Below, in pieces: positions 4,997-33,924 of a stretch of 64,000 nt of DNA. Under the pieces are notes generated by a model. The model ran no database searches, was not told the DNA's origin, and worked only from the letters and a program-made list of their open reading frames with translations. The translations under genes were made by a program, and so were the position numbers. Source of the stretch: Paraflavisolibacter caeni. GTDB lineage: Bacteria > Bacteroidota > Bacteroidia > Chitinophagales > Chitinophagaceae. Every line of letters begins with the position of its first letter. The stretch's first letter is position 1. Location: assembly GCF_025628885.1 (NCBI RefSeq), contig NZ_JAOTIF010000001.1, positions 911,751 to 975,750 on the forward strand, written 5' to 3'.

Positions 4997-5383
4997 TTAG
5001 ATTTCATCTCCCTCATCATTTAACAGCTCTCTTTCAATTTCTTCCATTTGCACAATATCCCAGGCTTCACTTTCAGTTGGCGTGATGTTCATCAACTCAA
5101 GCAAATTTGCTTTTTCTAAAAAGTCTTCTACCTCGCGGTTTATATTGCAGATCACAAAAGAGGCATTGTTATCATAAAAGTGTTGTTGTAACTTTACGAC
5201 AAGTTCGGCTGCATCTTCATCTAAATGTTTTACATCTTTAACATTTAGCACTACATTTGGAATACTAGTTTGTAAAATAGGCGCAAGTTGTTCATATAGA
5301 TCTGCTGCCATATTAGCAGTTAAATGGCTGGATACCACGCGAATGGCATGAAATTTTTCTTTGGTATCAGTTTTGACTTCCAT
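4997..5383 (-). CDS. STAS-domain protein (anti-sigma-factor-antagonist-like)
   Basis: A 128-residue protein made of a single STAS domain (about residues 5-110) with an acidic tail. STAS proteins such as SpoIIAA/RsbV bind partner-switch kinases, or form regulatory parts of other systems. The stretch NVVLNVKDVKHLDEDAAELV replaces the usual D-S-x-G-L phosphoacceptor loop with HLDEDAA, so there is no serine at the canonical phosphorylation position and phospho-regulation is doubtful. I prefer the internal ATG giving MEVKTDTKEK; a start 9 codons upstream is possible but would overlap the longer frame of clpC. It is divergent from clpC. Confidence 0.75.
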   Translation of the reverse strand: MEVKTDTKEKFHAIRVVSSHLTANMAADLYEQLAPILQTSIPNVVLNVKDVKHLDEDAAELVVKLQQHFYDNNASFVICNINREVEDFLEKANLLELMNITPTESEAWDIVQMEEIERELLNDEGDEI

Positions 5384-5471
5384 AATTACTTCGGGGAAAA
5401 GAGTTAACAATTATTGCTCAACTTCCCCTCAAAAATATTCGTATTATTGTTATAAAGCAATTAGAAAACAA

Positions 5472-7994
5472 ATGGATAATAATTTTTCTTCACAAGTAAA
5501 GGAAATCATCTCGTTCAGCAGGGAAGAAGCTTTGCGGTTGGGTAACGATTTCATTGGAACGGAACATTTGCTTCTGGGCTTGATTCGTGAAGGTGATAAT
5601 ACTGCGGTGCGGATTTTGAAGACCTTCAATGTAGATCTTTATGAACTGAGAAAGGAAGTAGAATTGGCTGTTAAAGATAAGACTGGTAAAAACATTGCTA
5701 ATATTAATAGTTTGCCGCTGACAAAGCAGGCTGAAAAAGTAATCAGGGTTACCGTTTTGGAAGCTAAAGCATTAAAAAGTCCTACAGTAGAAACTGAACA
5801 CTTGATGCTTTCAATTCTCAAGAACAAGGAAAACATTGCAACTCAAATCTTAAATCAATTTGACGTGGATTACGACATCTTTAGACAAGAACTAGGAATG
5901 GTTAAGTCCAACGACGTTAGAGCTGAGTATCAGGAAGAGGGTGATGATGATTTTGATGATGAAAAAAAGTACTCACAACAAAAATCTCGTCAGGCGGGTG
6001 CCACAAAGAGTAAAACGCCTGTATTGGACAATTTTGGCCGCGATATCACTAAGCTGGCCGAGACTGGTACTTTAGACCCGATTGTTGGGCGCGAAAAGGA
6101 GATCGAACGTGTTTCACAAATCCTTTCCCGTCGTAAAAAGAACAATCCTATTTTGATTGGTGAACCTGGTGTTGGTAAAACCGCAATTGTGGAAGGTCTG
6201 GCTCTTCGTATTGTACAACGTAAGGTGTCCAGGGTACTGTTCGATAAAAGAGTGATTTCTCTTGACCTCGCTGCCTTAGTGGCAGGTACCAAATACCGCG
6301 GCCAGTTTGAAGAACGTATGAAGGCCATCATGAATGAGCTGGAAAAGAATAGGGATGTGATCTTATTCATTGATGAGATCCATACTATAGTAGGTGCTGG
6401 TGGAGCTTCTGGTTCTCTGGATGCTTCCAACATCTTTAAACCAGCCTTGGCTCGCGGTGAACTCCAATGCATTGGCGCTTCAACCTTGGACGAGTATCGC
6501 ATGTACATTGAAAAGGATGGAGCTCTTGACCGTCGTTTCCAAAAGGTAATGGTGGAACCACCAAGTGTAGAGGACACCATTCAGATATTGAACAATATCA
6601 AGCCTAAATACGAAGAATATCACAACGTTATTTACGATCAGGAAGCTATTGATGCCTGCGTGAAGCTGAGTGACCGCTACATCACTGACCGCCTGTTGCC
6701 TGATAAAGCAATCGACGTGCTGGATGAAGTAGGTGCAAGAGTTCACTTAAAGAACATCAATGTACCTCAGAACGTCCTCGATCTGGAAAAGAAGATAGAA
6801 GATATCAAGGTTGAGAAGAACAGAGTCGTGAAAAGCCAGAAGTTTGAAGAAGCAGCTGCTTTGCGCGATACTGAAAAACGCTTGGGCGAAGAACTGGAAA
6901 AGGCTAAATCTCAATGGGAAGAGGAAAGCAAGCACAAACGTTACCCGATTGGAGAGGAACAAATAGCTGAGGTGATTAGCATGATGACAGGCATTCCTGT
7001 GAAACGGATGGTGGAAGCAGAAACGGAAAAGCTGCGTAAGATGGGTGATGAAATGAAGGCAATGGTAGTAGGCCAGGAAGAGGCAATCGGAAAAGTAGTA
7101 AAAGCTATCCAGCGTAACAGGGTAGGCTTGAAAGATCCTAAAAAACCAATTGGTACGTTCATCTTCTTAGGTCCTACCGGTGTAGGTAAAACTGAGCTGG
7201 CCCGTTCATTGGCCCGACATATGTTCGACTCTGAAGATGCGCTGATCCGCATAGATATGAGTGAATACATGGAAAAGTTCACCGTTAGCCGTTTGATTGG
7301 TGCACCTCCGGGATACGTTGGTTATGAAGAAGGTGGTCAGTTAACAGAAAAAGTCCGTCGTAAGCCTTATAGTGTCATCTTATTAGATGAAATTGAAAAA
7401 GCACACCCGGATATATACAACATCCTGTTGCAAGTGCTGGATGATGGCCAGTTGACGGATGGTTTAGGTAGAAAAGTGGACTTCAAGAATACTACCATTA
7501 TCATGACATCAAATATTGGTGTTCGTCAGTTGAAGGATTTTGGAGAAGGTGTAGGTTTTGCTACACAAGCCCGTCAACAAAATGCTGACGAAAACCATAA
7601 GGCAGTAATTGAGAAAGCTTTGAAACGTACTTTCTCGCCAGAGTTCTTGAATCGGATAGATGATGTAATTATCTTCAATTCCCTGACTAAAGAGCACATC
7701 TTTGAAATCATCGACATCCTGATGAAAGGTGTTATGAAGCGCCTGAACAACCTGGGCTTCAGTCTGGAATTAACTCCGGATGCTAAGGAATTCCTGGCTG
7801 ATAAAGGTTATGACCAGCAATTTGGCGCCCGTCCATTGCACCGTGCCATCCAGAAATACCTGGAAGATCCTCTGGCAGAGGAAATCCTTAATATGCACAT
7901 CAAACAAGGTGACATACTGAAGGCTGACCTGGATAAGGAAAATGGCAAGTTGAAGTTTGAACTGCAAAAGCCAGTAGAAGAAGCGAAAGCTTAA
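5472..7994 (+). CDS. clpC: ATP-dependent Clp protease ATP-binding subunit ClpC
   Basis: ClpC is a hexameric HSP100 unfoldase that feeds proteins to ClpP. From the ATG at 5472 the protein is 840 residues: two Clp_N repeats (about 1-140), an acidic linker, AAA-1 with Walker A GEPGVGKT at about 230-237, a UVR-type coiled-coil insert (KSQKFEEAAALRDTEKRL), AAA-2 with GPTGVGKT near residue 580, and the C-terminal D2-small domain. The UVR insert marks ClpC rather than ClpB or ClpA. The frame is open 37 codons further upstream, but that extension lacks conservation and overlaps the divergent STAS gene. No mcsA, mcsB or ctsR is adjacent. Confidence 0.96.
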   Translation: MDNNFSSQVKEIISFSREEALRLGNDFIGTEHLLLGLIREGDNTAVRILKTFNVDLYELRKEVELAVKDKTGKNIANINSLPLTKQAEKVIRVTVLEAKALKSPTVETEHLMLSILKNKENIATQILNQFDVDYDIFRQELGMVKSNDVRAEYQEEGDDDFDDEKKYSQQKSRQAGATKSKTPVLDNFGRDITKLAETGTLDPIVGREKEIERVSQILSRRKKNNPILIGEPGVGKTAIVEGLALRIVQRKVSRVLFDKRVISLDLAALVAGTKYRGQFEERMKAIMNELEKNRDVILFIDEIHTIVGAGGASGSLDASNIFKPALARGELQCIGASTLDEYRMYIEKDGALDRRFQKVMVEPPSVEDTIQILNNIKPKYEEYHNVIYDQEAIDACVKLSDRYITDRLLPDKAIDVLDEVGARVHLKNINVPQNVLDLEKKIEDIKVEKNRVVKSQKFEEAAALRDTEKRLGEELEKAKSQWEEESKHKRYPIGEEQIAEVISMMTGIPVKRMVEAETEKLRKMGDEMKAMVVGQEEAIGKVVKAIQRNRVGLKDPKKPIGTFIFLGPTGVGKTELARSLARHMFDSEDALIRIDMSEYMEKFTVSRLIGAPPGYVGYEEGGQLTEKVRRKPYSVILLDEIEKAHPDIYNILLQVLDDGQLTDGLGRKVDFKNTTIIMTSNIGVRQLKDFGEGVGFATQARQQNADENHKAVIEKALKRTFSPEFLNRIDDVIIFNSLTKEHIFEIIDILMKGVMKRLNNLGFSLELTPDAKEFLADKGYDQQFGARPLHRAIQKYLEDPLAEEILNMHIKQGDILKADLDKENGKLKFELQKPVEEAKA

Positions 7995-8052: not shown

Positions 8053-8703
8053 TTATCTCCCACCAGCCATAATAACTAATAAGTTCCTCCCACATACAAT
8101 GTCACGATTTCTGTTGTCACCCTCACCACAATCACCTGACCATTTTGCCCCTTGACTGCAAAATGACCGCCTTTGTCCTGTTTGTCCGCTCAAAACCAAA
8201 TTATCCTTCGTTGCTGCGCCTTACTTACTCCATACCTAAGCCGTACTTTAGGTATACATCAGCCGTACCTAAGCCTAGGCTACTTCGACCATCCTTCGAT
8301 CATCCTTCGACTATCCTTCGACCATCTTTCGACTATGCTTCGATCTGAATTGAGCAAATGCTCATAAATAAGGGGAAAACAACCTACAGGCAGAACGCCC
8401 TAAAAAGCCCTGAACGGAGGCAATGGAACTGCGCCTAAAGGTACAACACCAATCCCCACCCTCCAAGTTTTGAACCCCCAACTTCAAACTTCAAACTCCA
8501 AACCTCATTACCCCATTCGTCATTCTACCCACCCTCTCTCTTTCCTTCAATTCACAATTCACCATTGACCATTCCACTGGCTCCTTACACGGAAATCCAA
8601 TTCATCCGTTCCTAATCCCCTTGATCTGCGGTTCTATTTTGTTGTTCAGTATATTATTTTCATTTTTGCCAAGTTGAATCGAAGGATTTAAAAGTAGAAG
8701 TTG
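8053..8703. other. Intergenic region with composite repeat modules (locus 1)
   Basis: No convincing gene is present in 650 bases. The region holds an 11-bp-period array (separate entry) and modules that, read on the minus strand, reappear at 17.1-17.4 and 33.5-33.9 kb. These are GAATGACGAATGGGG (8511-8525), tandem GTTTGGA/GTTTGAA units (about 8480-8506), and a block with CGAAGGAT, GGTTTTG, GGACAAA and GCGGTCA (about 8163-8218). The last ~100 bases before cmk are AT-rich and should hold its promoter. Confidence 0.7.
8225..8345 (-). repeat. Array of eleven degenerate 11-bp units (locus 1)
   Basis: Read on the + strand, units start every 11 bases without slippage. There are five of the type CTAAGCCGTAC/TTTAGGTATAC (8225-8279) and six of the type ATCCTTCGACC/ATCCTTCGATC (8280-8345). 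The strand given is that on which the flanking modules match the locus at 17.2 kb. An 11-bp period is not a multiple of three, so this is not coding. It gives rise to spurious open frames rich in Phe-Asp-His-Pro-Ser. Confidence 0.85.
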
Positions 8704-9396
8704 ATGAAAAAGAATAAAAAGATCATTATCACGATTGACGGTTGGTCGTCTTGTGGAAAAAGCACAGTGGCAAAAGAGTTAGCTAATGCCTTGGGATATG
8801 TCTATGTAGATAGTGGTGCTATGTATCGTGCTATTACCCTTTATTTTTTACGCAATCATATTGATTGGACGCACAAAAAAGCTGTTAAAGAAGCTTTAGA
8901 AAACATTAGCCTGGAATTTATATACAATCCTCAGAGTGAAAAGTCAGAAATGTATCTGAACAGTGAGAATGTTGAGTATGTGATCCGTGATTTAGTGATT
9001 GCAGAAAAGGTTAGTGAAATCGCTGCCATTAAGGAAGTACGTGAATTTGCAGTGGCGCAGCAGCAAAAAATGGGAGAGAAGAGGGGGATTGTTATGGATG
9101 GCAGGGACATAGGAACCATCGTTTTCCCCGATGCTGAGCTCAAGATTTTTATGACTGCAGATAATGCAGTAAGGGTAGAAAGGAGGTTCCAGGAGCTTTA
9201 TGAGAAAAATCCCAACATAACATTGGAAGAAGTAAAAAATAACCTGGAGCTACGTGATTATATTGATTCCAATCGTGAGATTAGTCCATTGAGAAAGGCT
9301 GACAATGCAATCATTCTGGATAATACCCAACTCACTCCAAAAGAACAGTTTCAGAAAGCATTAAAAATGGCCCATGAAGCTATTGAGCATGCATAA
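8704..9396 (+). CDS. cmk: (d)CMP kinase
   Basis: Cytidylate kinase phosphorylates CMP and dCMP to the diphosphates in pyrimidine salvage and supply. The 230-residue length is standard. Walker A is GWSSCGKST at residues 13-21, followed by VDSGAMYRAITLYF (nucleotide monophosphate site), MDGRDIGTIVFPDA and RVERRFQE (lid region). The ATG at 8704 is preferred to the overlapping TTG at 8701. It is preceded by the repeat-rich locus 1 and followed by an inverted-repeat element that should end transcription. Confidence 0.95.
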   Translation: MKKNKKIIITIDGWSSCGKSTVAKELANALGYVYVDSGAMYRAITLYFLRNHIDWTHKKAVKEALENISLEFIYNPQSEKSEMYLNSENVEYVIRDLVIAEKVSEIAAIKEVREFAVAQQQKMGEKRGIVMDGRDIGTIVFPDAELKIFMTADNAVRVERRFQELYEKNPNITLEEVKNNLELRDYIDSNREISPLRKADNAIILDNTQLTPKEQFQKALKMAHEAIEHA

Positions 9397-14437: not shown

Positions 14438-17041
14438 ATGCTGCGATCCTCTATTTTGATGATATCCTTTTTTTTCTTCCTGGTAAGCTTTGCCCAAAAA
14501 GATACCAGCAGATTCAGGTACCGGCAACTTTCTGTTGATCTGCAGCGATTAATTTCAAAAAAGGAGAAGGATAGCGTAGAAATTGTAGTGGCTATCAATA
14601 AAGACAGCAGCTTGCCAAGGACTGGGCTAAAATTCAGGTTATTGGAGCATTATCTTCCGGCAAACATTATAAAAATAAAGGTGAAGCAGGATCAACTGGA
14701 AGAAGTACTGAAACTGTTTAATCCCAAATTTGCCAGTATTTCCCACCAGCCTAAAGAAGAACTTACTACCGGTAGTCTTGATATTTCCCTGAACAAGTTG
14801 AATTATGCTCATAGTTTACTTCCCGAGGTAAATGGAGAAGGGGTAGTCATTTCAATTAAGGAACAGCAGTTTGATTCTACTGATATTGATTACCAGAATC
14901 GTTATTTCAATTCTGGCAGGGCCGCCAACAGTATGACGACGCATGCTTCTATTATGGCCACTATAGCAGCCGGGGCTGCAAATTCTTCGCCTTTTGCAAT
15001 GGGGGCAGCTCCTGCCAGTACTATTACATCTTCCAGCTTTTCTTCACTTTTACCAGATCCTGATTCTGTGTTCCAAAAGTATAATATTACCATCCAGAAT
15101 CACTCCTATGGGACAGCTGTTGAAAGTTTTTACGGGAACGAAGCTTTTGCTTATGATGTAAGTGCTACAAATAATCCGGGTTTGTTGCATGTTTTTTCCA
15201 GCGGCAACTCAGGGGATACTTCTGGCTCGAATGGTTTATACGTTGGTCTTAAAGGTTATGGAAACCTCACCGGGAATTTCAAGCATGCTAAAAACATACT
15301 GACTGTAGGTGCTGTTGATTCATTTAATGTTGTAGAGTCCCGGAGTTCTAAAGGGCCCGCCTTTGATGGCAGGGTTAAGCCTGAACTAGTGGCATTTGGA
15401 GCTGATGGCAGTTCTGGTGCAGCAGCCATGGTTTCTGGAGCGATCGCTTTGGTGCAACAGGCTTACAGGAACAGTCATAGTGGGATTACTCCGGATGCTG
15501 CACTGGTTAAAGCGGTGATCATCAATAGTGCTGATGATATTGGAAATTTACATGTTGATTATTCTTCCGGATATGGGAGCTTGAATGCCTGGAAAGCTGT
15601 TTCAACTGTTTTGGAGAACCGAATTTTATCTGATTCCGTTTCCAGTGGAGCGTCAAAAACTTTCCCTATATCTATCCCAGCGGGTGTTTTACAATTAAAG
15701 GTAACTGTAGCATGGACTGATGTTCCTGCTGCTCCTAATGCTGTTAAGGCATTAGTCAACGATGTTGATGCAAAGCTGCTATCGCCAGCAACCAATGAAA
15801 GCTGGTTGCCGTGGGTACTTAGCTCATTTCCTCATGTTGATTCTTTACAAAGGCCGGCACATAGGATGCTGGATACTTTAAATAATGTAGAACAAATTAC
15901 AATTGATCATCCACAACCAGGCATTTACTTACTACAGGTAAAAGGAACAAGGATCACAACAGACAGGCAGAAGATCTTTGCAGCCATTCAAATGGATACA
16001 GCAAATAGTTTTACGTGGACCTTTCCTTCTAATGGTAGTCAGATCATTGCTGGCGATAATAATATATTACGCTGGCAAACTGATCTGGCAGGTGCCGCAA
16101 AGCTGGAATATTCGTATGATGGCAGCAATTGGCAGACCATTTCGGATCGTGTATCCCTGGAGAAAGCGTATTATAGATGGCAGGCTCCGGATGTTATGAA
16201 AAAGGCAATCCTGCGTATGTCTGTCAATTCTTTACCAGAGGTTATATCTGATACATTTGTCATCAGCAAGCAAACAAGGGTGCAGGTAGGTTTTAATTGT
16301 GAAGATTCTTTTTTATTGTATTGGAATGCTTTGCCTGCAATCAGCAATTACCAGATTTACCGGTTGGGCGACCAATATTTGCAGCCTGTTACGGCGGCCC
16401 AGGATACCTTTATAGTGGTACAAAAATCGCAGGATCAATCATTGTTTTATGCTGTTGCTCCGGTTGTCGATGGATTACCAGGAATAAAAAGCTATACAAT
16501 CAATTATGCAGCACTAGGTGTAGGCTGTTATTTAAGAGGTTTTTATGTACTGGAAAAGACGGATGCTTTTGTTGTGCTGAAAGCTGAGTTGGGAAGTCTT
16601 TATAATGTAATTCAAATCACTCTACAAAAAAGGATTGGAAATAATTTTGTTGATGTATCATCTATAAGTAGCCCTCTCGACCTTTCTTTTTTGTTCAGGG
16701 ACAGTACATTGGTTCAAGGTATCCAGTATTATCGTTTGCAACTCAGGCTGTTGAATGGCGCTGCTGTATATAGTGAGATCGTTCCAGTCTTTCATTTTTC
16801 TTCTTTGCCTGTAGTGGTTTATCCGAATCCAGTACAACAAGGCATACCGGTTAGTTTATTAACAAGTGAGCCAGGTAGGTATCAAATCGATATTATTGAT
16901 GTTCAGGGCCGGAAAGTAAAAGAATACAAACTTCAAAACCAGGAGGAAAGGATTCCTCTTATTCTTTCAAAAGGTATTTATTTTATCCGGATTCTAAGTG
17001 ATGAGGGTAAAGTTGGGGTGCAAAAGTTAGTGGTGTATTAA
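14438..17041 (+). CDS. Secreted S8-family subtilisin-like protein with T9SS sorting domain
   Basis: An 867-residue protein with a signal peptide (about 1-19), an S8 fold at about 130-390, a beta-rich P-domain/Ig-like middle, and a C-terminal T9SS type A domain (VVYPNPVQQG to the end). His169 (THASIMATIAAG), oxyanion Asn257 (FSSGNSG) and Ser326 (GSSGAAAMVSG) align with the subtilisin His, Asn and Ser. The catalytic Asp position is occupied by Glu142 in ISIKEQQFD, and the usual HGTH and GTSMA motifs are eroded. It may therefore be weakly active, or non-catalytic and used as a scaffold. The T9SS tail predicts export and attachment at the cell surface. Start is the ATG after an AT-rich divergent promoter region. 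Confidence 0.88.
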   Translation: MLRSSILMISFFFFLVSFAQKDTSRFRYRQLSVDLQRLISKKEKDSVEIVVAINKDSSLPRTGLKFRLLEHYLPANIIKIKVKQDQLEEVLKLFNPKFASISHQPKEELTTGSLDISLNKLNYAHSLLPEVNGEGVVISIKEQQFDSTDIDYQNRYFNSGRAANSMTTHASIMATIAAGAANSSPFAMGAAPASTITSSSFSSLLPDPDSVFQKYNITIQNHSYGTAVESFYGNEAFAYDVSATNNPGLLHVFSSGNSGDTSGSNGLYVGLKGYGNLTGNFKHAKNILTVGAVDSFNVVESRSSKGPAFDGRVKPELVAFGADGSSGAAAMVSGAIALVQQAYRNSHSGITPDAALVKAVIINSADDIGNLHVDYSSGYGSLNAWKAVSTVLENRILSDSVSSGASKTFPISIPAGVLQLKVTVAWTDVPAAPNAVKALVNDVDAKLLSPATNESWLPWVLSSFPHVDSLQRPAHRMLDTLNNVEQITIDHPQPGIYLLQVKGTRITTDRQKIFAAIQMDTANSFTWTFPSNGSQIIAGDNNILRWQTDLAGAAKLEYSYDGSNWQTISDRVSLEKAYYRWQAPDVMKKAILRMSVNSLPEVISDTFVISKQTRVQVGFNCEDSFLLYWNALPAISNYQIYRLGDQYLQPVTAAQDTFIVVQKSQDQSLFYAVAPVVDGLPGIKSYTINYAALGVGCYLRGFYVLEKTDAFVVLKAELGSLYNVIQITLQKRIGNNFVDVSSISSPLDLSFLFRDSTLVQGIQYYRLQLRLLNGAAVYSEIVPVFHFSSLPVVVYPNPVQQGIPVSLLTSEPGRYQIDIIDVQGRKVKEYKLQNQEERIPLILSKGIYFIRILSDEGKVGVQKLVVY

Positions 17042-17581
17042 CCGCGGATTAATAGGATTTTTCGCAGTGGAATGGACAGGAAGGACGATTTGAATGACGA
17101 ATGGGGGAGAGAAGATGATGCATGATAGAGGGATTTCGGATTCGGAGGTAGGGGTTGGGGTTGGAGGGGGAAGTGAAGAGGGAATTAGGAAGGGGTCAAA
17201 ATCTGTTTCGTGCTTCAGGTATGCTTTAAGTATGCTTCAGGTGTGCTTCAGGTGTGCTTGAACTATACTCCGGGTATACTATAGGTATACTCTAGGTATA
17301 CTTTAGGTATACTTAAGGTATACTGAAGCTACGAAGGATGCATGTGGTTTTGGTGGTCAAAACCGGACAAAAGCGGTCAATTCCTGTAAAAAGCGGTAAG
17401 AGCAGGGGGGAAGGATGGTGGGGTTGGGTGGCAAGGGGAGGGGGCGGTATTGGTTTGGGAAGTGGAAATTGCTGAAATAAGTATTGAGTGGGTTGGTGGG
17501 GATAGGGGGATTGAAGAATTAAGGATGGATTGGGCTTTAATATTTGTAGGGATGTTGAGCATTTGTGGGAGATCATATTAA
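17042..17581. other. Intergenic region with composite repeat modules (locus 2)
   Basis: No gene is seen in 540 bases. It carries GAATGACGAATGGGG with a GAGAAGATGATG continuation (17092-17120), a G-rich purine stretch (about 17135-17190), GGTCAAAA at 17194-17201, an 11-bp array (separate entry), then CGAAGGAT, GGTTTTG, GGTCAAAA (17355-17362), GGACAAAA (17365-17372) and GCGGTCA. These modules are shared with loci 1 and 3. Open frames here are low-complexity, Pro/His-rich artefacts. Confidence 0.75.
17212..17332 (+). repeat. Array of eleven degenerate 11-bp units (locus 2)
   Basis: Eleven consecutive units of exactly 11 bp: GCTTCAGGTAT, GCTTTAAGTAT, two GCTTCAGGTGT, GCTTGAACTAT, ACTCCGGGTAT, ACTATAGGTAT, ACTCTAGGTAT, ACTTTAGGTAT, ACTTAAGGTAT, ACTGAAGCTAC. 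In the second half the palindrome GTATAC recurs every 11 bases, close to one DNA helical turn. The 30 bases at 17197-17226 are identical to 33570-33599. Confidence 0.92.
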
Positions 17582-17638: not shown

Positions 17639-18571
17639 TTATGCCAATGTTTTTAATACATCGTTCATGTTGCGAACTGCATCTGCACTCTTGCTAAACA
17701 GCGCTTGTTCGTCTGCGTTCAACTTATAGTCGATTACTTTTTCCCAGCCATTTTTGCCAAGGATTACAGGTACACCCATGCAAATGTCATTTTGCCCGTA
17801 CTCACCTTCAAGCGCAACACTACAAGCAATTAATTTCTTTTCGTCTCTTACAATGGCTTCTACCATTGCTGCACCAGCTGCACCCGGAGCGTACCAGGCA
17901 GAGGTTCCAATTAATTTGGTTAAAGTGGCGCCACCAACCATTGTGTCAGCAATAATTTGTTTTTGTTGTTCTTCGCTTAAGAAGTTGGTTACAGGCACGC
18001 TGTTCCATGTTGCATAGCGAATCAGCGGAATCATTGTTGTGTCACCGTGGCCACCAATAACAATTGCATTCAAATCAGCTGGAGAGCAGTTCAGTGCCTG
18101 GCTCAGGTAGCATTTGAAACGGGCGCTATCCAATGCACCACCCATACCGATTATGCGGTTCTTTGGTAAACCGGTTGCTTGCAGGGCCAGATAAGTCATT
18201 GTGTCCATTGGGTTGCTGATGATGATCAAGATAGCATCTGGAGAGTGCTTCAAGATGTTTTCTGCAACACCTCTAACGATATTAGCGTTCACCCCGATCA
18301 GTTCTTCGCGGGTCATGCCTGGTTTACGAGGGAGGCCTGAAGTGATCACTACTACATCAGAGCCAGCAGTTTTACTGTAGTCGTTTGTGCTGCCAATAAT
18401 TTTTGTGTCGAAACCAAGGATGGCTGCAGTTTGGGTCATGTCGAGTGCCTTTCCTTCAGAAACTCCTTCTTTGATATCAAGCAATACCAATTCTTTGCAA
18501 AGTTCTTTCCGGGCAATGTTATCTGCAACGGTAGCGCCTACTGCGCCAGCGCCAACAACAGTTACTTTCAT
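17639..18571 (-). CDS. mdh: Malate dehydrogenase
   Basis: This 310-residue NAD-dependent LDH/MDH-fold enzyme interconverts malate and oxaloacetate in the TCA cycle. The Rossmann motif is GAGAVGATVADNIA at residues 7-20, and the NAD-binding Asp is in LVLLDIKEG. The active-site loop GLPRKPGMTREEL carries the substrate arginines; an arginine-arginine/lysine loop with PGM is the malate-type signature rather than lactate-type. The catalytic Asp/His pair is around SARFKCYLSQ and IGGHGDTTMIP. The length matches the tetrameric LDH-like MDH of Bacteroidota. Own promoter and terminator are visible. Confidence 0.95.
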   Translation of the reverse strand: MKVTVVGAGAVGATVADNIARKELCKELVLLDIKEGVSEGKALDMTQTAAILGFDTKIIGSTNDYSKTAGSDVVVITSGLPRKPGMTREELIGVNANIVRGVAENILKHSPDAILIIISNPMDTMTYLALQATGLPKNRIIGMGGALDSARFKCYLSQALNCSPADLNAIVIGGHGDTTMIPLIRYATWNSVPVTNFLSEEQQKQIIADTMVGGATLTKLIGTSAWYAPGAAGAAMVEAIVRDEKKLIACSVALEGEYGQNDICMGVPVILGKNGWEKVIDYKLNADEQALFSKSADAVRNMNDVLKTLA

Positions 18572-26477: not shown

Positions 26478-26622
26478 AGTTAACGATTAATGTGATGAAA
26501 TGAAATCGAATCTTGTGCCAGAGAAAAATAAAAGAATAAATGTTGTGTTAAATGCGTATAGGGTTGATTGATTTTAACAATGGATAATGAATGGTTAATG
26601 ATGAATGGGCAATGGTGGATGG

Positions 26623-27285
26623 TCAGGGTTTTACCAGAATGTTTTTGGCGACCTTTTCGCTTAGATGTAGCTGTTTTTTATTGATCACTACAATTAAAGA
26701 CTGGTCATATTCATTCCTATCAAGGATCTTGATTTTGATAGCCGGCCTGATGTCAACTTTACTTAAATAGTCAAGAAAGGAATCGGCAGTTTCTGCAAAG
26801 CTTTGAACGATGTAGGTTTTTCCTAATTCCACTTCCTTAAGGGGGATTAATTGAACTTGCGTCAATTTGCCGTTTTTGTCTGGAATCGGATCGCCATGGG
26901 GATCTGATGCAGGAAAGCCAAGGAAAGCATCCAGCCTGTTTACCAGGTCCTCGGATTCTATATGTTCTAATTGCTCGGCCAACTCGTGTACTTCGCTCCA
27001 CTGATAGTTTAGTTTATCTACTAAAAATACTTCCCAGAGCCTGTGCTTGCGAATAGTAAGCAGTGCTTTCTTCCTGCCTTTCTCAGTAAGGTGGATCGTT
27101 TTGTCTGGCATCAATTGCACCATTTTGCGGTCTGAAAGTTTCCGAACCATTTCCAGAACTGTTGCCGGGTTGAGATCTAATTCCTTGGCCAAAGCTATGT
27201 TATTCACTTTTTTAACCTGTTTGCTGCTGAGTTTAAAAAGCGCCTTCAAATAATTTTCTTCAGAGAGGTGTGCAAAATGTGACAT
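26623..27285 (-). CDS. DtxR/MntR-family metal-dependent transcriptional regulator
   Basis: A 220-residue repressor with an N-terminal winged helix (KKVNNIALAKELDLNPATVLEMVRKLSDRK, residues about 20-50), a metal-binding/dimerisation domain containing HRLWEVFLVDKLNYQWSEVHE with several His/Glu ligands (about 75-130), and a C-terminal FeoA/SH3-like domain (about 145-220). Such proteins bind DNA when loaded with Mn2+ or Fe2+. I take the ATG giving MSHFAHLSEENY. The frame extends 14 codons further, but that extension would start inside the 26-bp palindrome. It is divergent from a TonB-dependent receptor, its likely target. Confidence 0.9.
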   Translation of the reverse strand: MSHFAHLSEENYLKALFKLSSKQVKKVNNIALAKELDLNPATVLEMVRKLSDRKMVQLMPDKTIHLTEKGRKKALLTIRKHRLWEVFLVDKLNYQWSEVHELAEQLEHIESEDLVNRLDAFLGFPASDPHGDPIPDKNGKLTQVQLIPLKEVELGKTYIVQSFAETADSFLDYLSKVDIRPAIKIKILDRNEYDQSLIVVINKKQLHLSEKVAKNILVKP

Positions 27286-33528: not shown

Positions 33529-33584
33529 GGGGATGAGTTTGGAGTTTGAGGTTTGGAGTTTGGAAGGGACAAAATCTGTTTCGT

Positions 33585-33617
33585 GCTTCAGGTATGCTTC
33601 AGCTATACTATAGGTAT
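33585..33617 (+). repeat. Short 11-bp array, three units (locus 3a)
   Basis: GCTTCAGGTAT, GCTTCAGCTAT and ACTATAGGTAT follow each other at 11-bp spacing and are the same unit type as at 17.2 kb. The 30 bases at 33570-33599 are identical to 17197-17226. After the third unit the register is lost in diverged sequence. Confidence 0.85.
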
Positions 33618-33728
33618 GGGTGGGTTGGATAAGGGGATAGTAGGGCGTAGGTATACTTTAGATACGGGGTTGATCCGGAGTAGTATAGGAGTGGTCGAGG
33701 AGGATGTAGTTAGGATGTACGGCTAATG

Positions 33729-33794
33729 TTTACTATAACTCTACTATAAGTTTACTATAACTTTACTGTAAGTTTCCTATAAGATTACTATAAG
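33729..33794 (+). repeat. 11-bp array, six units (locus 3b)
   Basis: TTTACTATAAC, TCTACTATAAG, TTTACTATAAC, TTTACTGTAAG, TTTCCTATAAG and ATTACTATAAG stand in exact 11-bp register. The unit sequence differs from the array at 33585 but keeps period, length and flanking modules. Confidence 0.9.
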
Positions 33795-33924
33795 GGACAA
33801 TTGGAATGACGAATCGGGGAGGAGAAGATGATTGATGATAGATGGTAATGGGGATTTGGGAATTCGGATTTCGGAATTTGGATTTGAAGGGTTTATTTGA
33901 AACAGCTATAATATTTTTCTTTTC

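Follow-up and report, generated by a model that had tools for sequence, protein, structure and literature searches.

The arrays of 11-bp units described here, from a bacterium of the phylum Bacteroidota, are intergenic and keep an exact 11-bp register while the sequence of the units changes. We suggest that they are helically phased putative protein-binding arrays that originated in the control region of a gene cassette present in many copies and have been copied around the genome, often without the gene, and we put the probability of this interpretation at about 0.52. The reading as binding arrays is based on the facts that the spacing is stricter than the sequence, that it is close to one helical turn, and that a small gene with a predicted helix-turn-helix (HTH)-like product usually lies beside the array elsewhere.

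The window, which is the whole 64-kb stretch of DNA analyzed (C1:911751-975750 of a genome of 7.01 Mb in 89 contigs), contains four 11-bp arrays, and all of them were confirmed at the positions reported by an earlier sequence-only reading (Table 1). When identities were counted in a 66-base frame at lags 4 to 30, scores of at least 46 occurred only at lag 11 and its multiple 22, and the lag-11 regions were 8254-8353 (48 identities), 17209-17352 (52), and 33714-33805 (47); the maximum in three Markov shuffles of the window was 36. Tandem Repeats Finder returned period-11 arrays at 8283-8343, 17213-17324, 33584-33618, and 33728-33794, together with six short period-11 rows of 1.9 to 2.8 copies elsewhere in the window. 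The eleven units claimed at 17212-17332 and the six at 33729-33794 were thus recovered by both methods and the three at 33585-33617 by Tandem Repeats Finder, and the array claimed at 8225-8345 in the opposite orientation was also found, its first part (8225-8266) being weaker and in register by eye. The scan in 33-base frames described below added one further lag-11 stretch (33659-33702). The shared flanks that had been described are likewise present: 30 bases are identical at 17197-17226 and 33570-33599, and CGAAGGAT and the GGACAAAAGCGGTCA block, the latter with one change in copy 2, are common to the first two loci.

Table 1. Parts of the repeated elements in the window (positions counted from the first base of the window; G000 is the window's genome)
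Feature	Position	Strand	Basis or remark
Repeated element, copy 1	17187..17397	+	blastn vs 25 other copies, longest matches 17180-17397
Left flank CAAAATCTGTTTCG	17197..17210	+	Read directly; identical at 33570-33583
11-bp array, 11-12 units, family F1 (ATACTTTAGGT / ATGCTTCAGGT)	17204..17342, core 17212-17332	+	
CGAAGGAT at array border	17332..17339	+	Read directly
GGACAAAAGCGGTCA block	17365..17379	+	= G000:C1:929115-929129
Repeated element, copy 2	8153..8586	-	blastn matches 8153-8215 and 8219-8586 to other copies
11-bp array, ~11 units, TACGGCTTA-type (F5) then TCGAAGGATAG-type (F2), one register	8225..8351	-	
GGACAAAGGCGGTCA, block with one change	8164..8178	-	= G000:C1:919914-919928:-
CGAAGGAT at array border	8203..8210	-	
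Left flank and three F1 units, partial copy	33570..33618	+	blastn to other copies
Weak lag-11 stretch, four units	33659..33702	+	
11-bp array, six to seven units, family F3 (TTTACTATAAG)	33721..33799	+	

Copy 1 sits between convergent genes, one subtilase-like (14438-17041, +) and the other for a malate/lactate dehydrogenase (17639-18571, -), and has no cassette gene behind it. Copy 2 lies between genes for a ClpB-type chaperone (5361-7994, +) and a cytidylate kinase (8701-9396, +), all four neighbors being named from Pfam. None of the three gene families RG, MARQ, and IYPKD, which are treated below, has a match inside the 64-kb window, and both window copies are gene-less. In blastn, 33617-33847 aligned to part of another locus, L017, at 89.7% identity. 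Tandem Repeats Finder also listed a second repeat class with a 7-bp period (AGTTTGG, GGGATTT, TGAATGG) at 33535-33564, 33851-33886, 8480-8507, 8548-8574, and 26587-26625.

Autocorrelation on a larger scale had been proposed as the way to tell a general phenomenon from a local accident, and it revealed an excess at lag 11 in a chromosome sample composed of C1:1-400000 and the window (33-base frame, threshold 22 identities). There were 18 lag-11 regions in the 400 kb and 4 in the window, whereas lags 8, 9, 10, 12, and 13 gave 1, 2, 1, 3, and 1 regions in the 400 kb and lags 6 and 15 gave 5 each. Lag 7 gave 9 regions, which belong to a separate heptamer class with the multiples 14 and 21. Only 0.3% of the bases of the 18 arrays fall into open reading frames (ORFs) of at least 100 aa, compared with 87.6% for the sample. 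The 18 arrays fill 12 ORF gaps, six co-directional, six divergent, and none convergent; the background of gaps of at least 150 bp comprises 63, 31, and 6, respectively, with ORFs called mechanically. The units fall by eye into about six families, and the register is kept across the junctions between families, as at C1:229222-229376, where 13 to 14 units run through two such changes.

The flank modules had been suggested as search profiles, and the GGACAAAAGCGGTCA block indeed recurs, at 41 places with at most one mismatch (0 in the reversed control) and at 56 with at most two (23 in the control). A set of loci that is independent of the period was obtained from these places, namely 27 unique GGACAAAAGCGGTCA loci (30 of the 56 places less three overlapping ones; 27 of the 41 places with at most one mismatch). 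A lag-11 score of at least 22/33 within 260 bp before the block was found at all 27, a count that covers lag 11 and no other lag. When successive motif pairs not more than 60 bp apart were measured in the 300 bp upstream of the 27 block copies, the spacing was a multiple of 11 for GGTAT in 57/57 pairs, GTATAC in 35/35, CTT.AGG in 33/33, CGAAGGAT in 8/8, and TACGGCT in 7/7, counts that are not independent because many of the 27 copies share descent. The claim that the units drift while the period never slips therefore holds for these motif pairs. The lengths of indels in pairwise alignments (multiples of 11 in 129/1699 for arrays vs 49/921 for spacers) are uninformative and lend no support to the register, as the gap costs led to numerous short gaps in both classes of sequence.

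In the multicopy gene cassette, the arrays make up the left part of the control region, and the order is 11-bp array, CGAAGGAT, block, and gene; the CGG units of the block are spaced about 9-10 bp apart, as read in other loci. A gene of the RG family (~200 aa, multicopy, with 27 matches in the window's genome) follows 98-103 bp downstream of 15 of the 27 blocks (two of the 15 genes are incomplete, one of them because it lies at a contig end), and a MARQ-family gene follows another block at 178 bp. A cassette gene is accordingly found 98-178 bp behind 16 of the 27 blocks, and neither RG nor MARQ behind the other 11. Searches of Pfam, PHROGs, and NCBIfam yielded no reliable match for either the MARQ or the RG proteins. 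By eye, the variable C-terminal end of RG (e.g., VNGQWSMVN in L006) resembles heptamer-like repeat DNA taken into the coding sequence.

A MARQ alignment scan of named genomes returned at least 547 relatives, of which the best 80 were kept; these come from Chitinophagaceae, many from Flavobacterium, and a few from Algibacter, Oceanihabitans, Jiulongibacter, and a Saprospiraceae bacterium. In 74 of these best 80 loci, a divergent gene of about 65 aa, IYPKD, lies upstream of MARQ (found by a regular expression for its motif over 1000 bp of the opposite strand; most of the products have 62-68 aa), and in many of them an 11-bp array stands at or shortly before the IYPKD start codon; a few loci, L189, L196, and L208 among them, have no visible array there. 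A comparable layout, with a lag-11 stretch between divergent IYPKD and MARQ, thus exists in other Bacteroidota genera. After removal of loci that were more than 60% alike, the stretch between the two genes was scored in the 25 non-redundant loci that remained, and the mean best lag-11 score was 18.2 vs 13.7 in shuffles (z 9.1), with z between -2.2 and 2.0 for the other lags from 6 to 20. A score of 20/33 was reached at lag 11 in 8 of the 25 and at any other lag in at most 1. An initial scan of the 80 loci with a high threshold had found lag 11 in 2/80 upstream stretches, with no other lag, and in 0/80 downstream stretches; at the far left locus ends (n = 67), there were 2 stretches with lag 11 and 1-2 for each of the other lags that appeared. 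Subsequent tests concentrated on the region adjoining IYPKD and worked with shorter frames and shuffles; with 22/33 over -450..-40 as the threshold, lag 11 was represented by 7 loci, lag 10 by 3, lag 19 by 2, and lags 8 and 9 by 1 each.

The spacing of AT[AG]C in 68 loci was 11 in 69 cases, followed by 22 in 14 and 5 in 10, and the summed unit of 55 loci reads AT(A/G)C(T/C)TT(T/A)(G/T)(A/C)(T/C). The F1 unit of the window, ATACTTTAGGT, fits this consensus better than 99.7% of random 11-mers. For the other families, the corresponding fractions were 0.021 (F3), 0.033 (F1b), 0.047 (F6), 0.086 (F5), and 0.10 (F4); the resemblance is faint for the units of G124 (0.22) and L265 (0.18) and absent for F2 (0.56), G007 (0.39), and G015 (0.39). 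Two control 11-mers gave 0.66 and 0.67, and since fifteen 11-mers were tested, middling values mean little.

Downstream of MARQ, a DUF5675 gene is present in 50 and a DUF6943 gene in 41 of the best 80 loci, both named from L184, and small hydrophobic proteins that look holin-like by eye often stand beside them; some loci are cut by contig ends. The other gene-cluster names were given by eye. The papers listed for DUF5675 concern phages, and DUF5675 and the small hydrophobic proteins of the cassette look phage-derived. In L184, L207, L224, and others, DUF5675 is followed by small hydrophobic proteins (in L184 also by DUF6943), perhaps a lysis-like module, and the DUF5675 protein of L184 has a weak match to Tlde1 (E 0.0018) that is below the cut-off.

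In other Bacteroidota, arrays of this kind lie next to the IYPKD/MARQ pair, a position that points to a landing strip on which a DNA-binding protein would depend on the spacing. The predicted structure of IYPKD has four helices with a mean pLDDT of 94.8, and in our reading of the model, two predicted hairpins are HTH-like; the predicted structure of MARQ is poor (mean pLDDT 60). Nothing reliable was found for IYPKD in Pfam, and its PHROG match to a Cox-like excisionase and repressor is weak (of the three sequences searched, one gave E 4.5e-4, another 0.022, and the last no match). Comparison of the model with Xis, Cox, and MerR folds gave no confident match (best PDB E 1.4), and the best viral match was an unnamed model (E 0.09, TM 0.71). 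The best 50 matches of each fold search were mostly EF-hand and HTH proteins with weak scores; there was no Xis, Cox, or BldC among them, and they included two MerR-type proteins (PDB E at least 6) and one viral protein of the excisionase family (E 2.5).

The similarity of the units follows that of IYPKD when MARQ is held constant (r 0.28, p 0.001, n 55), and the reverse link with MARQ is weaker (0.12, p 0.04). This link may be mere physical linkage, as IYPKD is the nearer neighbor of the array. Among 25 IYPKD loci, 20/33 was reached in 8 of 16 with MARQ in the locus and in 2 of 9 without it. The window's genome has nine IYPKD genes, of which six stand next to an array and three (L266-L268) do not. 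In one IYPKD subtype (L261-L264), the array lies directly behind the stop codon and not in the promoter, with the same strand sense. At E 1e-4, IYPKD had no match in G015 (100% complete, 47 array clusters) or G007 (84% complete, one array by eye). IYPKD as modelled can therefore not be the binder everywhere; in these two genomes, the putative binder may be an IYPKD relative too distant for the search or a MARQ-type protein itself.

The window's genome was placed in the genus of G005 (Flavisolibacter longurius BT320, JACJGO010000011.1). By eye, 11-bp stretches with other units stand upstream of MARQ genes in G001, G005, G007, and G010. In the sister species G013, the GGACAAAAGCGGTCA block occurs at 19 places with at most one mismatch (1 in the control), has CGG units 9-10 bp apart, and precedes MARQ-like genes in the loci read. 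In two G013 loci (L091, L099), a palindrome of about 35 bp, TATAGATACTGCGTG ... CACGCAGTATCTATA, precedes both the CGG block and the MARQ-like gene. Another sister species, G015, is the clearest case and has a pattern of its own, TTACTCCGTAT at 22-bp spacing with variable units between, with 93 placements in 47 clusters (1 in the reversed control). A MARQ match lies within 700 bp of 6 of the 47 clusters, and 6 of 22 MARQ matches are near a cluster. The spacing in 11 G015 loci was a multiple of 11 for ACTCC in 35/39 pairs, CCGTA in 30/34, and TTCAT in 10/14, the remainder being off register. Gene-less and gene-bearing copies have about 90-165 bp around the array in common (blastn). The G015 pattern was found nowhere in G013 or G124 and once in the window's genome, which indicates that amplification is species-specific and the period common. 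The abundance of the arrays is species-specific as well, because none of 57 relatives has the F1 tandem pattern and no lag-11 region above 31/44 was found in 200 kb of G124 or in 100 kb each of G003 and G034. One G124 array was found by similarity (L084, 35/44). L275, a locus in a genome of the same family, has an other-looking 11-bp array, TTCAACAACCG (29/33), about 205 bp behind an IYPKD-like gene.

Alternatively, the arrays could mark the end of a mobile element and be recognized there by a recombinase or its directionality factor, which would bind them to move the cassette, and the gene-less copies would be non-autonomous offspring of the MITE type. The high copy numbers are in agreement with this (41 block places and 27 RG matches; in G015, 41 clusters without MARQ within 700 bp), as are the rough ends of array-only copies in blastn, the excisionase-like PHROG match of IYPKD, the phage-derived look of DUF5675 and the small hydrophobic proteins, and one gene cluster in 9 of the 80 loci that looks like tyrosine integrases by eye. 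However, the 14 gene clusters listed within about 3 kb on each side include no other recombinase or transposase, and a search of viral contigs did not recover the MARQ family; we consider this explanation unlikely. Neutral minisatellites, in which slippage adds or removes 11-bp units and the spacing is under no selection, would account for the observations that units are most alike within one array and that several unlike families exist, and the shared descent of the copies and the uninformative indel comparison leave room for them. Slippage hardly explains, however, why the register persists across junctions of unlike units and in 27 copies without a slip, why the sister species G015 has the same period with other units, why lag 11 alone stands at a fixed place in other genera, and why the 7-bp class is the smaller one and the lags around 11 are so rare. 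Neutral slippage is weakened and in our view quite improbable. Of the two ideas of the sequence-only reading, selection on a spacing of about one turn and copying in 11-base steps, the former is the better supported, on the grounds of the junctions, the slip-free copies, the sister species G015, and the other genera.

Two further explanations place the function in the nucleic acid itself. If the arrays acted as RNA, the transcribed array would fold into a long hairpin, and the region 17190-17400 does reach -79.4 kcal/mol on the plus strand (z -7.5) and -42.6 kcal/mol on the minus strand (z -2.7) against dinucleotide shuffles, with three more regions at z of about -2 to -3 (Markov shuffle) and mean z values of -1.3 (MARQ strand) and -0.9 (other strand) in 18 named loci with unit columns kept. 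When the letters were redealt within the unit positions, however, the z of the window array shrank to -2.8, the other 21 arrays lay between -1.7 and 1.7 on both strands, and the F2, F3, and F4 arrays tested fold no better than shuffles. The hairpin at 17190-17400 is thus mostly a consequence of the near-palindromic F1 unit, and long RNA hairpins are weakened to the point of being very unlikely. Intrinsic bending or flexibility of the DNA alone, with no dedicated protein, could be read from the TA steps at a fixed phase in several unit families, from a period near the helical turn, and from TA being the most constant dinucleotide in 6/22 arrays, more than any other. Against it, another dinucleotide is more constant than TA in 16/22 arrays, the F1 unit resembles the units of other genera more than flexibility requires, and A-tracts are depleted, with 0.42 A4/T4 runs per 100 bp in the 22 arrays vs 3.38 in ORF-free 200-bp tiles. 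Runs so few cannot mark most array units, so that a phased A-tract curvature element, and with it bare bending by such tracts, is not supported; bending of any kind without a protein is, in our estimate, highly improbable.

Direct repeats spaced by about one helical turn, as found here, characterize cooperative HTH operator arrays of the Apl/Cox/Xis/BldC kind. P2 Cox and lambda Xis, two recombination directionality factors, have direct-repeat operators. The arrays described here differ from those of Apl, Cox, and Xis in having up to about 14 units, several families in one register, and many gene-less copies, and the cassette has no recombinase and a putative binder, IYPKD, without a confident winged-helix match. 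Apl of phage 186 and other directionality factors are described as using direct repeats one turn apart with weak single sites, high cooperativity, and spreading (PMC7498355). The Apl operators there are direct repeats 10-11 bp apart for a small DNA-binding protein, similar to the present arrays, and lie between two opposed promoters and at att (PMC7498355). RdfS and BldC form filaments with low sequence specificity and no strict dependence on a consensus, according to another study (PMC11963761). In BldC, one DNA turn separates bound molecules over a long region, comparable to the unit spacing of these arrays, and the same study reports no consensus motif for RdfS, in contrast to the visible species-specific units here (PMC11963761). 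Both proteins belong to other phyla, and no homology to them was found. By analogy, the arrays would work like phased direct-repeat operators, a known kind. Two papers describe a helix-related periodicity of A-tracts, at about 11 bp, in bacterial genomes (PMC4132750, PMC3431218); it is a genome-wide bias of A/T runs, whereas the present arrays are discrete, intergenic, and poor in A-tracts.

CRISPR arrays, REP/BIME elements, and MITEs are, like these arrays, multicopy intergenic repeats. The repeats of a CRISPR array are parted by unique spacers of at least 20 bp, and here the units are contiguous, 11 bp long, and without spacers. REP/BIME elements are imperfect palindromes of 20-40 nt with a hairpin in every copy, and here only 1 of 22 arrays fell below z -2 with unit columns kept. 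MITEs have terminal inverted repeats and target-site duplications. CRISPR and REP-type repeats and A-tract bending are therefore excluded or weakened. The whole window had no Rfam match at gathering scores, and no literature on 11-bp intergenic arrays in Bacteroidota or on the cassette families was found by multi-term queries, which are weak evidence of absence; the earlier statement that no described family is known thus agrees with the sources searched.

As for the mechanism of the proposed protein-binding arrays, a small protein that binds DNA, with IYPKD or a relative as the likeliest candidate, would put one subunit on each 11-bp unit, and the subunits along one face of the helix would build a cooperative filament that controls the cassette. 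Contacts between neighbors would fix the spacing and single sites may be weak, so that the sequence could drift while the spacing stays. In the window's genome, the control region would have been copied to many intergenic sites, often without its genes. More tentatively, the 11-bp arrays might represent a new type of repeat in bacteria, one that began in Bacteroidota as an operator belonging to an IYPKD/MARQ cassette of phage origin and then spread, one species at a time and with ever new units, to tens or hundreds of intergenic sites, seeding filaments that act on neighboring genes or the nucleoid; the inherited signal would then be the spacing and not the sequence, a possibility we regard as speculative.

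The arrays are a natural case in which a spacing of about one helical turn is kept despite sequence drift, with many natural replicates in one phylum. They also draw attention to an unstudied multicopy cassette (IYPKD, MARQ, DUF5675, small hydrophobic proteins, and DUF6943) in Flavobacterium, Chitinophagaceae, and others, whose putative regulator and target DNA become directly testable.
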